A stretch of 37,552 nucleotides of DNA, taken from Bacteroides sp. (GTDB lineage Bacteria > Bacillota > Clostridia > Lachnospirales > Lachnospiraceae). Each line of letters starts with the position of its first letter. Within the stretch, counting starts at the first letter, position 1. Under the pieces are notes generated by a model. The model was not told the origin of the DNA, ran no database searches, and saw only the letters and a program-made list of their open reading frames with translations. Shown here one piece after another: positions 3,869-35,372 of this stretch. The position numbers were made by a program, and so were the translations under genes. The stretch covers positions 1 through 37,552 of the forward strand of contig JAMPBO010000023.1 in the NCBI GenBank assembly GCA_023666705.1, read 5' to 3'.

Positions 3869-5536
3869 ATGACAGACATTGAAATTGCACAAAAGGCAGA
3901 GCTCAAAACTATAAAGGATGTGGCAGCGGCTTTGGATATAACCGAGGATGACATAGAGCTTTATGGAAAGTATAAGGCAAAGCTGTCAGACGAGTATATC
4001 AGCTCGGTACAAAAAAATAAGGATGGAAAATTGATTCTTGTGACAGCAATCAATCCGACACCTGCAGGAGAGGGGAAAACGACTGTTACGGTTGGTCTTG
4101 GACAGGCGATGGGAAAGCTTGGCAAAAGAGCCGTTATCGCCTTGCGGGAGCCGTCCCTTGGTCCTTGCTTTGGCATTAAGGGTGGAGCAGCAGGAGGAGG
4201 ATATTCACAGGTTGTCCCAATGGAAGATTTAAATCTTCATTTCACGGGAGATTTCCATGCCATAACCTCGGCAAACAATCTTTTGGCGGCACTTATGGAT
4301 AATCACATCCATCAGGGAAATGCACTTCGGATTGATACGAAAAGAATTGTATTTAAGCGATGCCTTGATATGAATGACAGGGTGCTTAGAAATATCGTCG
4401 TCGGAATGGGAAAGAAGGCAGACGGTGTTATGAGGGAGGATGGCTTCGTTATTACAGTTGCCTCTGAAATTATGGCGATACTTTGTCTTGCTTCTGATAT
4501 CGGGGATTTACAAAGCAGACTTTCCAAAATTATCGTGGCATACAACGTGGATAATGAGCCTGTGACAGCGGGGGATTTAAATGCGGTAGGTTCCATGACT
4601 GCACTGCTCAAGGATGCCATTAAGCCAAATATGATTCAGACATTAGAGCATACACCTGCACTTGTCCATGGCGGACCGTTTGCAAATATAGCACACGGCT
4701 GTAATTCAGTGCGGGCTACGAGAACTGCCCTTAAAATTGCTGATTATGTCATAACAGAGGCAGGCTTTGGTGCTGACCTTGGTGCAGAAAAGTTTTTTGA
4801 TATTAAATGCAGAATGGCAGGACTTGTGCCGGATGCGGTTGTCCTGGTTGCAACGGTAAGAGCACTGAAATATAATGGCGGAGTGCCGAAGGATAAGCTT
4901 GGAACTGAAAATGTGGAAGCACTAAAAAAGGGTATTGTAAATCTGGAGAAGCACATTGAAAATCTCAAGCTTTACGGTGTACCGATTGTTGTTACGCTGA
5001 ACAGGTTTATTTCAGATACAGAGGCAGAGCTTGCATACGTGAAAAAATTCTGTGAGGAACGGGATTGTGACTTCGCACTTGCAAATGTGTGGGAGAAGGG
5101 CGGAGAAGGCGGAATAGAACTGGCAAACGCCGTTTTAAACACAATTGAAAATAAGGAAAGCAATTTCAGGCTGCTGTATGAGGGCAGCCTTTCAATCAAG
5201 GACAAAATAAAAACGGTAGCGACCAAAATATATGGAGCTGATGATGTTACATACAGTGCGGAGGCTTTACGTGCAATTGACAAAATTGAAGCAATGGGCT
5301 TTTCAAATATGCCTGTATGTATGGCGAAAAACCAGTATTCGCTTTCGGATGATGCAGGAAAGCTCGGAAGACCAACTGGGTTTACGGTGAATATCAGAGA
5401 GGTTTATGTAAGTGCGGGTGCAGGCTTTGTTGTTGCAATTACAGGACAGATTATGACAATGCCGGGACTTCCAAAGGTGCCGGCGGCAGAACGGATTTTT
5501 GTAGACGAAACTGGAACGATTAACGGATTATTTTAA
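3869..5536 (+). CDS. fhs: Formate--tetrahydrofolate ligase
   Basis: 555-residue cytosolic enzyme that joins formate to tetrahydrofolate using ATP, giving 10-formyl-THF for purine and formyl-Met synthesis and for acetogenic-type one-carbon flux. The length matches the family (about 555-560). The P-loop-like PAGEGKTT motif is at residues 65-72, with the family stretches [23 protein letters not shown] (read in parts) and [10 protein letters not shown] following. The start has AAAGGAAG upstream. folD, the next enzyme of the pathway, begins 11 bases after the stop, so the pair is almost surely cotranscribed. Confidence 0.98.
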
Positions 5537-32363: not shown

Positions 32364-33107
32364 ATGAGCATTGAGGTAAAATTAAATGTATTTGAGGGTC
32401 CCTTGGATTTACTGTTACATTTAATAGAGAAAAATAAATTTAATATATTTGATATTCCCATCGTTGATATAACGGAGCAGTATCTTGACTATGTAAATCA
32501 GATGGATGATTCTGACCTTGACCTTATGAGTGAGTTTTTGGTTATGGCGGGAACGTTAATCAGCATCAAGGCAAAAATGCTCCTTCCGAAGGAGGAAGAG
32601 TCTGTTGAGGAGGAGGACCCAAGAAGCGAGCTTGTGAGAAGGCTTCTTGAGTACAAAATGTATAAGTATGCGTCCTACGAGCTGAAGGATATGGAATTGG
32701 ATGCAGAAAAGTCATATTACAAACAGGCTACACTTCCGAAGGAGGTATTGGAGTACAGGGAAGAAATAGATCCGGCTGAGGTTGTGGGAGATTTGACACT
32801 GGCTAAGCTTAGCGAAATATTTAATCAGGTGATGAAGCGTACCGTGGACAGGGTTGACCCCATACGAAGCAAGTTTGGAACAATTGAAAAGGACGAGGTG
32901 CGTGTTGAGGACAAAATGGAAGAAATACGCACGGGCATAAAGGGCTTAAGAGGGATTAATTTCAGGACGCTTTTGGAGACACAGGCGTCTAAAATGAACG
33001 TAATCGTAACATTTCTGGCGGTGCTTGAGCTGATGAAGATAGGAAGCATCGTGATTCGGCAGGAGGATTTGTTTGGAGAAATTATGATAGACTCTCTTGA
33101 GATGTAA
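32364..33107 (+). CDS. scpA: Segregation and condensation protein A
   Basis: 247-residue kleisin that bridges the Smc dimer in the chromosome condensation complex. The N-terminal domain VKLNVFEGPLDLLLHLIEKNKFNIFDIPIVDITEQY (read in parts) is diagnostic. An acidic middle binds ScpB, and the C-terminal winged helix has VTFLAVLELMKIGSIVIRQEDLFGEI. The ribosome site is weak (TTTAGG). scpB follows 13 bases later, the standard pair. Confidence 0.97.
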   Translation: MSIEVKLNVFEGPLDLLLHLIEKNKFNIFDIPIVDITEQYLDYVNQMDDSDLDLMSEFLVMAGTLISIKAKMLLPKEEESVEEEDPRSELVRRLLEYKMYKYASYELKDMELDAEKSYYKQATLPKEVLEYREEIDPAEVVGDLTLAKLSEIFNQVMKRTVDRVDPIRSKFGTIEKDEVRVEDKMEEIRTGIKGLRGINFRTLLETQASKMNVIVTFLAVLELMKIGSIVIRQEDLFGEIMIDSLEM

Positions 33108-33120
33108 TATTGGAGGAAAT

Positions 33121-33696
33121 ATGGAAGATACAAGGAATGAAATTGCAGCAGCCGTTGAGGCGATACTGTTTTCCATGGGGGAAGCAGTGCCGGTAAAGGA
33201 GCTTTTAAATGTGCTTGAAGTAGAGGAGCATGTACTTAAGGAAGCAATCGACAGCCTGACAGAGGAATATGAAGCAGAAAACAGGGGAATTAAGCTTGTC
33301 AAGCTGGAGGATTCCTATCAGTTGTGTACAAAGCATAAATATTACGATTATCTTACCAGGCTGGTAAATATGCCGAAGAAGCATGTGCTTACGGATTCCC
33401 TGCTGGAAACATTGTCCATAATTGCGTATAAGCAGCCGATTACAAGACAGGAGGTAGAAGCCATACGTGGCGTTTCCTGCGTTCATGCAATCAACAAGCT
33501 TGTGGAATATAAGCTTGTGGCAGAGATAGGAAGACTGGATGCTGTGGGAAGACCGATTCTGTTCGGTACCACGGAGGACTTTTTGAGAAGCTTTGGAGTT
33601 ACGTCCATGGACGACCTGCCTGTCATTACACCTGACAAGATAGAGGATTTCAGGCAGCAGGCAATGGAGGAAGTAAACATCAGGGTAGAAACGTAG
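33121..33696 (+). CDS. scpB: Segregation and condensation protein B
   Basis: 191 residues from the ATG at 33121, which has GGAGG in good position (an upstream ATG at 33097 lies inside scpA). Two winged-helix domains: IAAAVEAILFSMGEAVPVKELLNVL, and ETLSIIAYKQPITRQEVEAIRGV with LFGTTEDFLRSFGV. It partners ScpA in the Smc complex. Oddity: its last Thr codon and TAG stop are the first bases of the outermost inverted repeat of the palindrome that follows (ACGTAG at 33691-33696), so the repeat may have reset the gene's end. Confidence 0.96.
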   Translation: MEDTRNEIAAAVEAILFSMGEAVPVKELLNVLEVEEHVLKEAIDSLTEEYEAENRGIKLVKLEDSYQLCTKHKYYDYLTRLVNMPKKHVLTDSLLETLSIIAYKQPITRQEVEAIRGVSCVHAINKLVEYKLVAEIGRLDAVGRPILFGTTEDFLRSFGVTSMDDLPVITPDKIEDFRQQAMEEVNIRVET

Positions 33697-33753
33697 CGGC
33701 ACTAAAAGCTGTGGGCATATACCACCATGCAATCAAAACAAAAACCGTTTGAA

Positions 33754-33969
33754 GACGTCGGTACTTAAGTTGTCCGCACGATAGGGCTAAGCAGTAACCA
33801 AAAACACGCTTTCGCTCGATGAGAACGTAGCGGCACTAAAAATTGCCGGTTTAAGACACCTACAAGCATAGATATCTTAGTCCGGCAATTTAAGTGCCGA
33901 CGTTCTCATAACGGTTTTTTTATTACTGCATAGCTCTATCGTGCGGACAACTTTTAGTACCGCTACGTC
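33754..33969. repeat. Middle pair (level B), reversed polarity
   Basis: Left arm 33754-33797 and right arm 33923-33969. Inner stem GTTGTCCGCACGATAG matches its partner exactly, followed by G/A differences and GCAGTAA. Here the CTTAA arm is on the left and the CTAAAA arm on the right, opposite to levels A and C. Confidence 0.8.
33819..33909. repeat. Inner pair (level C)
   Basis: Left arm 33819-33849 (ATGAGAACGTAGCGGCACT then AAAAATTGCCGG) and right arm 33882-33909 (CCGGCAATTTAAG then TGCCGACGTTCTCAT). The loop 33850-33881 holds a further TAAGA/TCTTA pair. Confidence 0.8.
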
Positions 33970-34043
33970 TTTAACCGAGCGAAAGCGGGTTTTTGTGTGA
34001 TTGCATGGGTGGTATATGCCCACAGCTTAAGTGCCGCTACGTT

Positions 34044-34196
34044 GTCGTTAAGTGAAAGTATATTTTATTGTCACTGCATCAGATTTGTTATATCCATAAC
34101 GCAAGTACTGATGTCTTAGGTTCAACTTTAATTGGTATTCTAAATTTTCAGCACATGAAATATATTAACTATATATTATATTCAAGGGTTTCAGAT
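34044..34196. other. AT-rich leader before dacF
   Basis: Between the palindrome and the carboxypeptidase start. Open frame continues upstream of 34197 in the same frame, but it lacks a ribosome site and would precede a clear signal peptide, so I treat it as leader. No convincing sigma-A promoter; a forespore sigma-factor promoter would be expected from Bacillus dacF but I could not identify one by eye. Confidence 0.4.
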
Positions 34197-35372
34197 ATGA
34201 GGTATTTCAGTACAATTATTGTAATTTTTTCCATGTTGCTGCAACATCCGTTTTGTGTGGGCTTCAATGAGCAAAAGGAAATAAAGGAAAATCAGCTCTA
34301 TTCCATTTCGGCAGTCCTCATGGATGGGGATACAGGCAGAATATTGTATGAGAAAAACGGGGAAGAAGTAAGGTCAATGGCAAGCACCACAAAAATAATG
34401 ACACTGATTCTTACCTTGGAGTATGGAAATACGGAGGATATTGTGACGGTCAGCTCCTATGCCGCCAAGATGCCCGATGTTCAGCTTGGAATCAAGAAGG
34501 GTGAGCAGTACAGGCTTGAGGATTTGCTCTATTCCCTTATGCTGGAAAGCCATAATGACAGTGCTGTTGCAATAGCAGAGCATGTCGGCGGTGATGTGGA
34601 GGGCTTTGCCAACATGATGAATAAAAAGGCGGCAGAGCTTGGTCTTAAGAACACTTATTTTATAACGCCAAACGGCTTGGACGCCAAGGACGATAAGGGA
34701 AGTCATTCGACAACGGCGGCTGACCTGGCACGTATCATGAAGTACTGTACCATGGAATCCCCAAAAAAGGATGAATTTATCCGTATTTGCCAGACAAGAC
34801 AGTACATGATTCACGAATATGACGGTGCAAGAAGCTTTAGCCTGACAAACAGAAATTCCCTTTTTACAATGATAGACGGAGTGATTGCAGGAAAGACGGG
34901 CTTTACGACACAGGCAGGATATTGCTATGTGGCAGCTCTGGAACGGGACCAGAAAACATACATCATTGCACTTTTGGGCTGTGGGTGGCCGAACAATAAA
35001 AGCTACAAATGGTCTGATGCAAAAAAACTGTTTCAATATGGAATAGAAAATTATGATTATGAAATGGTATTAGACAACAGCTATGCATCGCCCAATATCA
35101 GGGTGAAGGATGGAATAGAACAGGATTACATTTCCACGTATGTAAGCGACAGTGTTTCCATGATACTATGTGATGCGGATGATGTAAGGCTGGAGGCGGA
35201 GATACCGGAGGTAATCACTGCTCCCGTGTCAAGGGATGAGGTGGTAGGAAGAATTAACGTGTATGTAAATGATAAGCTTTTTACGTCCTGCAATTTGTAT
35301 TCTTCTGAGTCCATAAAAAAGACCAGTTATTTATACTATCTGAAAACCGTGATAGACTGTTATATTTTTTAA
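34197..35372 (+). CDS. dacF: D-alanyl-D-alanine carboxypeptidase (DacF-type)
   Basis: 391 residues from the ATG at 34197 (AAGGG eight bases before), which begins directly with a signal peptide MRYFSTIIVIFSMLL. Serine DD-peptidase of the S11 family that trims the terminal D-Ala of peptidoglycan stem peptides. S63 and K66 form the SxxK motif (STTK), S118-H-N120 the SxN motif, and K233-T-G the KTG motif. The C-terminal domain from about 300 is PBP5-like. Ending VDCYIF without a clear amphipathic anchor is atypical of DacA. Sporulation-specific DacF is likely given spoIVA nearby, but DacA/DacB cannot be excluded. Confidence 0.85.
   Translation: MRYFSTIIVIFSMLLQHPFCVGFNEQKEIKENQLYSISAVLMDGDTGRILYEKNGEEVRSMASTTKIMTLILTLEYGNTEDIVTVSSYAAKMPDVQLGIKKGEQYRLEDLLYSLMLESHNDSAVAIAEHVGGDVEGFANMMNKKAAELGLKNTYFITPNGLDAKDDKGSHSTTAADLARIMKYCTMESPKKDEFIRICQTRQYMIHEYDGARSFSLTNRNSLFTMIDGVIAGKTGFTTQAGYCYVAALERDQKTYIIALLGCGWPNNKSYKWSDAKKLFQYGIENYDYEMVLDNSYASPNIRVKDGIEQDYISTYVSDSVSMILCDADDVRLEAEIPEVITAPVSRDEVVGRINVYVNDKLFTSCNLYSSESIKKTSYLYYLKTVIDCYIF

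Follow-up and report, generated by a model that had tools for sequence, protein, structure and literature searches.

What kind of element places three inverted repeats one inside the other directly behind a bacterial gene, and does it belong to this locus only? The window (the whole stretch of 37,552 nucleotides analysed here, from contig JAMPBO010000023.1) carries such a structure at positions 33690-34043, where a first-pass annotation made from the letters had claimed three nested pairs of inverted repeats; they are present at those coordinates, as three concentric layers around a core (354 bp in total). The palindrome is flanked on the left by scpB (33097-33696, Pfam SMC_ScpB) and on the right by a D-alanyl-D-alanine carboxypeptidase gene (ORF 34068-35372), and its left end overlaps scpB, whose TAG stop codon (33694-33696) falls within ACGTAG. 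The DNA fold of 33690-34043 has an energy of -141 kcal/mol, where shuffled sequences average -44.9 (z -24.5) and none of 100 does as well; for the RNA fold of 33680-34055 the values are -217 and -100 (z -22). Complementarity amounts to 94% between the outer ends (33690-33706 and 34027-34043, 17 nt), 100% in the stem 33706-33726/34008-34028 (21 nt), 81% in the stem 33725-33750/33983-34008, 89% in the stem 33767-33804/33916-33953 (38 nt) and 83% in the core (33840-33862/33869-33891). The features are listed below; R1 is a covariance model of the single module, built from 48 sequences, and F and R denote the two polarities of a module.

33690..33706, plus strand: outer layer, left arm end AACGTAGCGGCACTAAA, F polarity by the left arm; the scpB TAG stop (33694-33696) lies inside
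33706..33736, plus strand: variable stem between outer and middle layers, left arm (inverted repeats)
33737..33768, plus strand: middle module, R polarity, left arm, ACGTCGGTACTTAA, without bulge
33767..33799, plus strand: variable stem between middle and inner layers, left arm (inverted repeats)
33792..33933, plus strand: inner module with core, F polarity; best R1 match (75.7 bits, E 3.4e-19)
33838..33893, plus strand: core hairpin AATTGCCGG...CCGGCAATT (inverted repeat)
33920..33953, minus strand: variable stem between middle and inner layers, right arm (inverted repeats)
33951..33999, minus strand: middle module, R polarity, right arm, AGTACCGCTACGT with 2-nt bulge; weak R1 match
33998..34028, minus strand: variable stem between outer and middle layers, right arm (inverted repeats)
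34027..34043, minus strand: outer layer, right arm end; the minus strand also reads ACGTAGCGGCACT, the bulge being gone

The three layers are related without being identical at their ends. The sequence ACGTAGCGGYACT, which had been described as shared by all pairs, is found on both arms of the outermost layer but on only four of the six arms overall (33691 and 33825, and on the minus strand 33956-33968 and 34030-34042); the remaining arms read ACGTCGGTACT in the middle layer (33755-33765) and AGTGCCGACGT in the inner layer (33893-33903). In the inner two layers, ACGTAGCGGYACT faces ACGTCGGYACT, so that 2 nt bulge out, and both the middle and the inner layer have one arm with an additional CGCTTTCGCT segment. 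Bulge and extra CGCTTTCGCT, being on one arm, give each layer a polarity, and the left arms of the window read F, R, F and then the core AATTGCCGG; the first-pass annotation was right that CTAAAA and CTTAA change places in the middle pair. The right arm of the middle module further includes a GAGC-GAAA-GCG segment (33977-33987) and a T run (33990-33994). Against R1 the middle layer scores weakly (13.6 bits, E 0.18, 34002-33853 on the minus strand), and the automatic layer parser recognises only the inner two layers of the window. Cores resembling that of the window are present at loci L001, L002, L004 and L005.

The unit that builds these layers is a polar structured module of about 109 nt (109 model positions). 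Besides an outer stem and a central stem with a bulge, it has a small side hairpin rich in GC, and it ends in a hairpin loop. In F polarity, its left arm runs AAAACACGCTTTCGCTC..ACGTARCGGYACTAA and the opposite arm TTAAGTRCCGACG..GGTTTT; the stems between modules differ in sequence from layer to layer. The stems of the module covary. In an alignment of 51 single copies (A1, with a structure written by hand from one copy, L149, and with L157, L241 and L036 left out), 75.8% of the cells are paired, compared with 61.5% in shuffles and at most 44.5% when slid; 430 cells are changed on both sides (196 in shuffles), and 35 of the 44 pairs include a both-side change (30.0 shuffled). RNAalifold, unaided, predicts 16 pairs from the same alignment. 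(From alignment A2, L258, L243, L140, L230, L264, L105 and L148 were left out in addition to those three.) A further 22 copies, located by the model among its high-scoring matches, come from 20 stretches; 14 of the 22 are from genome G068, and 11 lack the exact motif. An alignment of these copies that was fitted to the structure has 87.6% of its cells paired (76.0% in shuffles), and both sides have changed in 24 of its 36 pairs (12.6 in shuffles). Compensatory changes affect even ACGTARCGGYAC among these copies, so that the ends are not invariant: the apparent constancy of ACGTARCGGYAC is an effect of its use as search key. In every one of the 51 aligned and 22 model-located copies, the loop of the side hairpin fits T-Y-N-C on the F strand and hence GNRA on the R strand. 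By eye, A1 also exhibits a G-A mismatch, apparently conserved, that separates two covarying pairs in the stem below the bulge (between columns 44 and 46/128 and 130) and an A-A mismatch topping the central stem (column 68/111).

How far does this module extend beyond the window? R1 matches 32 times in the window's genome, 54, 64, 43, 29 and 29 times in the congeners G003, G004, G035, G036 and G020, and 4 to 54 times in six congeners without the exact motif. Further counts are 90 in G126, 32 in G437, 1 in G100, 5 in G150, 0 in G111 and at least 148 in G068, where every candidate scored was positive; eight genomes from other families of the order gave no match. These counts may be low, at most 148 candidates having been scored per genome. 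When 120 genomes of the Lachnospiraceae were sampled evenly, with no genus represented twice, 58 of them contained R1 matches under stricter filters and with at most 32 candidates scored. Using motifs, ACGTAGCGGYACT occurs 10 times in the window's genome (0 for the reversed control), ACGTARCGGYACT is found in 27 of the 37 genomes of the genus (reversed control in 6 of 37, once each, and some single ACGTARCGGYACT matches may likewise be due to chance), and ACGTARCGGTACTAAG is found in 25 of the 397 genomes of the family, with 82 occurrences in G126 (control in 4). A degenerate 18-base pattern matched 89 stretches, of which 19 bear titles from outside the order or phylum and were taken as chance matches. 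Motif and model searches retrieve, from the window's and related genomes, further copies that share the ends but differ in their stems. Rfam yields no match in the window and, at 16 other loci, just four matches to microRNA and snoRNA families, all below gathering score, so that no known RNA family could be assigned. In keeping with the first-pass remark that no named element with these ends is known, none was found in Rfam or by searches of an open-access library of papers, absence from the latter being no proof that the family is unpublished. The module seemingly represents an undescribed hairpin repeat family of Lachnospiraceae, which is best read as dispersed and REP/MITE-like.

Nesting in this family follows a rule. 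The first-pass annotation saw one layer of the window in opposite orientation, and this proves general, as neighbouring layers are of opposite polarity in 46 of 46 distinct parsed nested copies. A layer is counted here only if its two motifs are paired with each other in the fold, which leaves out the outer layer of the window's palindrome (mirrored arm) and two loci, L112 and L135, where the two motifs lie side by side and un-nested. Single, double and triple copies all exist; triples were found in the window's genome (L001, L003 and the window itself), in CAMWGV (L065) and in DKZK (L076), and all of them alternate. Most doubles have spans of about 216 and 78 nt. This constant spacing suggests that doubles probably arose from few nesting events, so that the 46 alternations stand for far fewer independent events. 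For the proposed repeated insertion, independent arrival of every layer is not supported, since most nested copies share the two-layer spacing and were probably dispersed as preformed doubles. Species also differ in how many layers they carry at one and the same locus: one site between convergent genes reads RF in L126, RFR in L202 and FR in L231 and is reduced in L212 (L137, a single module, has just one flank in common with this locus). Of the 22 orthologous pairs compared, 14 show a size difference above 25 nt, and 10 of these differ in the layer number read.

The site behind scpB has a history of its own. At the same site in G036 (L160), two left arms are absent and the sequence passes from an outer ACGTAATGGTTCT straight into the core, a deletion of the kind that recombination of the direct repeats 33690-33726 and 33824-33860 would produce. 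In G035 (L161), just a short hairpin with CACGCTTTCGCT..AGCGAAAGCGTGTTTT follows scpB, and this may be what is left there of the insertion seen in the window. Given the deleted version and this remnant, the element probably predates the split of these species. The scpB gene ends with GAAACGTAA in L160, L161, L166, L167 and L169 and differently in other relatives; judging from these sequences, a motif-like coding end of scpB was probably fused to the element. The outermost layer carries ACGTAGCGGCACT on both arms, and the right arm of L160 is decayed and (by eye) without the extra CT; the mirrored arm of the window may stem from arm-to-arm copying. The short hairpin of L161 (2083-2130) is terminator-like and made of the sequence of the module's side hairpin.

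Copies of the family are placed away from divergent promoters. Placement was recorded for 123 copies that have the motif (at most one mismatch), another motif no more than 400 nt away and, on either side, an ORF of at least 90 aa; exact duplicates were removed, orthologous copies kept and ORFs delimited without a gene finder. Of these copies, 48 lie between convergent, 67 between tandem and 8 between divergent genes (2 are inside an ORF), the background in the 8-kb loci being 72 convergent, 390 tandem and 68 divergent among 530 junctions. Convergent placement is more frequent for nested copies (30/46) than for singles (18/77; p 7.5e-6), although this contrast lies partly between genomes, as 13 of 29 singles in a subset of loci are convergent (13 tandem, 3 divergent). 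Singles between tandem genes comprise 27 in F and 27 in R polarity. Some arms end, outside the modules, in an A tract and GGCTGYCGCAC on one side and GTGCGRCAGCC and a T tract on the other, and a terminator-like GGCTG..CAGCC arm pair flanks 16 of the 123 copies (loose motif, both sides). Over 118 copies, the right arm is followed by more T than A (0.35 vs 0.26, p 0.0004); the excess of A over T before the left arm (0.33 vs 0.28) is non-significant (p 0.09). A terminator scan of 33500-34400 found none. Hairpins with GGCTGYCGCA and without the element are present in 7 of 8 genomes; among seven inspected, four are located at convergent gene ends and three between same-direction ORFs, two of the latter far from either ORF. 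They may be host terminators, or short forms or terminal repeats of the element itself.

Presence/absence variation at orthologous sites is well supported: four orthologous pairs are occupied in one species and unoccupied in the other, including one in an apparent trp operon (by eye; G012 vs G030). At the four unoccupied sites, neither a clear target duplication nor a hairpin is visible by eye, so that these sites lend no support to entry into a pre-existing loop. The loop is put forward as the target on the basis of nesting, of the terminator-like surroundings of some copies and of second-family hairpins inside loops, rather than of an empty-site junction. Across 8 alignable orthologous pairs, four of which are 55-71% identical and perhaps represent different insertions, 494 base pairs are unchanged and 198 are changed on one side, and both-side changes kept pairing in 39 cases and lost it in 45. 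Two pairs of single copies are more alike than their flanks: L136 and L140 (G009 and G013) are 99% identical between flanks of 87%, a difference that simple drift leaves unexplained and that we count against our best explanation, and L151 and L190 are 94% identical over 159 nt, with flanks of 78%. A search for a cognate transposase, as had been suggested, brought none to light in the family searched: the Y1_Tnp profile has 0 matches in the window's genome and is absent from 13 of 14 congeners (present in 1 of 14, and in 4 of 11 genomes of other genera).

Our best explanation, to which we assign a probability of roughly 0.55, is that the palindrome belongs, as a triple-nested copy, to a dispersed and Lachnospiraceae-wide family of non-coding structured hairpins, whose modules enter hairpin loops, including their own. 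Under this explanation, modules would insert either into terminator-like hairpins at gene 3' ends or into earlier copies, with opposite polarity each time, and would be mobilised by a putative enzyme acting in trans; mature doubles then appear to spread as units. Copies would persist near stop codons because they are tolerated there, or perhaps because they add to transcription termination, and their arms would stay complementary during sequence drift through template-switch correction, selection or both. The family, its architecture and covariation, the alternation of polarity, the avoidance of divergent promoters, the presence or absence of copies at orthologous sites and the differences in layer number are observed; loop-targeted insertion, mobilisation in trans, the terminator role and the mechanism of arm matching are steps that we infer. 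A more general and more tentative formulation, which we would not yet favour over its negation, is that mobile hairpins home to loops, each one bringing the next target loop and always taking the opposite polarity, and thereby build Matryoshka palindromes at terminators.

One alternative, which we regard as unlikely, is a structured RNA family in which the transcribed module acts as a 3' UTR structure, a terminator or an RNA-binding site and dispersal is secondary. The GNRA loop on the R strand in all 51 aligned and 22 model-located copies fits such a role, as does the scarcity of copies between divergent genes (8 of 123), but singles between tandem genes are equally numerous in both senses (27 and 27). 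If RNA were the acting form, G-U mismatches should outnumber A-C mismatches on the acting strand. They do so between tandem genes in the mRNA sense (109 vs 69, p 0.003), a bias that may however be a mutational strand bias; numbers are balanced in single modules by polarity (73 G-U and 84 A-C) and in alignment columns (97 and 98, with large noise from misaligned outer stems), and the arm-versus-arm comparison that yields the tandem and polarity figures gives 245 G-U and 217 A-C over all 123 copies. One column pair, 63-115, has 14 G-U and no A-C in the F sense. The strand evidence is thus mixed, with the GNRA loop pointing to the R strand, column pair 63-115 to the F strand and most counts to neither, and strand-specific RNA selection was not retained on the basis of G-U counting. 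Selection for structure, suggested for the different stems, is one of several explanations of their pairing: G-U and A-C are nearly equal in most of the counts, so that pairing alone is no proof of RNA selection, and template switching, which according to a passage in PMC8794818 can create and maintain hairpins without selection, can likewise keep arms complementary. The same process, or duplication of arms, could in principle have added layers to a single hairpin where it stood, without arrival of any module, and the outermost right arm, which mirrors the left one while L160 has (by eye) a decayed arm without the extra CT, is in line with it. We nonetheless consider growth in place improbable, as modules with the same bulge and side hairpin occur at many unrelated loci, copying would tend to erase the asymmetries, and alternating polarity does not follow from copying alone. 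As for an assembly fold-back, which the first-pass annotation had raised, we give it practically no weight: the arms are non-identical, the layers differ from one another, the L160 assembly contains a partly deleted version, and the same family recurs in independent assemblies.

Ordinary REPs mobilised by a REP-associated tyrosine transposase (RAYT) are another conceivable source, and the resemblance is real. Passages of PMC3733652 describe REPs, tagged with GTAG or CGTC, as dispersed intergenic palindromes near gene 3' ends, mostly between unidirectional or convergent genes, with a unit of 20-40 bp and with ends that can donate TAG stop codons. Similarly, the present module is intergenic, near 3' ends and seldom between divergent genes, and the window copy supplies the TAG stop of scpB. 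A GTAR tetranucleotide (GTAG or GTAA) stands at the foot of the central hairpin on its 5' side; REPs carry their GTAG or CGTC tag unpaired at one end, and here GTAR is internal and partly paired. However, the unit is a multi-part module of 109 model positions (354 bp for the window copy) instead of 20-40 bp, it nests concentrically where REPs form side-by-side dimers, and Y1_Tnp is absent from the window's genome and from all but one of the 14 congeners searched, among them G003, G004, G035 and G027, which are rich in copies of the module but lack the profile; we therefore judge this origin very improbable. The main text of PMC3733652 does not contain the words Firmicutes or Clostridi-, and a word search of the main text of the 2025 RepRanger survey (PMC12306157) returned neither Lachnospir- nor Clostridi-.

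Besides REPs, three types of known systems invite comparison with the family. Miniature inverted-repeat elements (MITEs) and small repeats of Firmicutes include BOX and RUP. Like these, the module is short, non-coding and multi-copy, and family-B copies share inverted ends GTTGTACAATATAG; GTTGTACAATAYAGAC occurs at 74 places against 5 for the control (at most two mismatches), a result for family B and not for the window copy. By eye, no clear target duplication is seen at the four unoccupied sites, and no parent insertion sequence came to light in the Y1_Tnp search. Unlike MITEs, BOX and RUP, the module has a whole fold that covaries strongly, and its nesting is recursive. The insertion sequences IS1397, IS621 and ISKpn1 encode their own transposases. 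They also enter REP palindromes, as reported in a passage of PMC1525189, and thus share with our family palindromic DNA as insertion target, but in our case what is inserted is itself one of the family's hairpins. Intrinsic bidirectional terminators resemble some copies in having an A tract, a GC-rich hairpin and a T tract (16 of 123 by motif), but not in the module nested in the loop, and the scan found 0 terminators in 33500-34400.

Several vehicles and element types were considered and set aside. Phage or plasmid carriage was rejected, since none of 14 viral contigs with the 16-base motif has the second arm within the 90 nt covered and a blastn search of the 354-bp palindrome against plasmids and phages returned no match. 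Two loci contain tandem arrays (L260, 1-800, and L261, 296-790) with repeats of about 300 and 216 bp, each repeat with one same-orientation module; an integron-like cassette array was rejected here, as L260 1-800 has no ORF of 90 aa and an antisense ORF of L261 (667-1209) overlaps the array end. An autonomous element was sought at four places with two motifs, two of which enclose an apparent ordinary metabolic gene (by eye) between the motifs, while the other two, with adjacent copies, enclose no ORF.

A repeat without an Rfam entry that occurs in 58 of 120 sampled Lachnospiraceae genera, with at least 148 matches in one genome, merits a name and annotation. Layers that differ between species at common loci offer a way to test how long palindromes persist and whether arm matching is due to selection or to template switching, and nested layers a way to test whether loops of terminator hairpins serve as landing sites for small mobile DNA.

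Two minor observations concern neighbouring repeats and reduced copies. A second small hairpin repeat, ATGTCCTGAGGTGGCTGC..AGCAGACGGAGTCCTGAGGACAT, is found with its relatives within module loops and side bulges, at L036 (about 1550-1600), L039 (about 1515-1575), L085 (about 4425-4475), L297, L314 and L317. In L297, a 54-nt family-B copy (about 1671-1724) is apparently internally deleted, its outer ends being all that remains.
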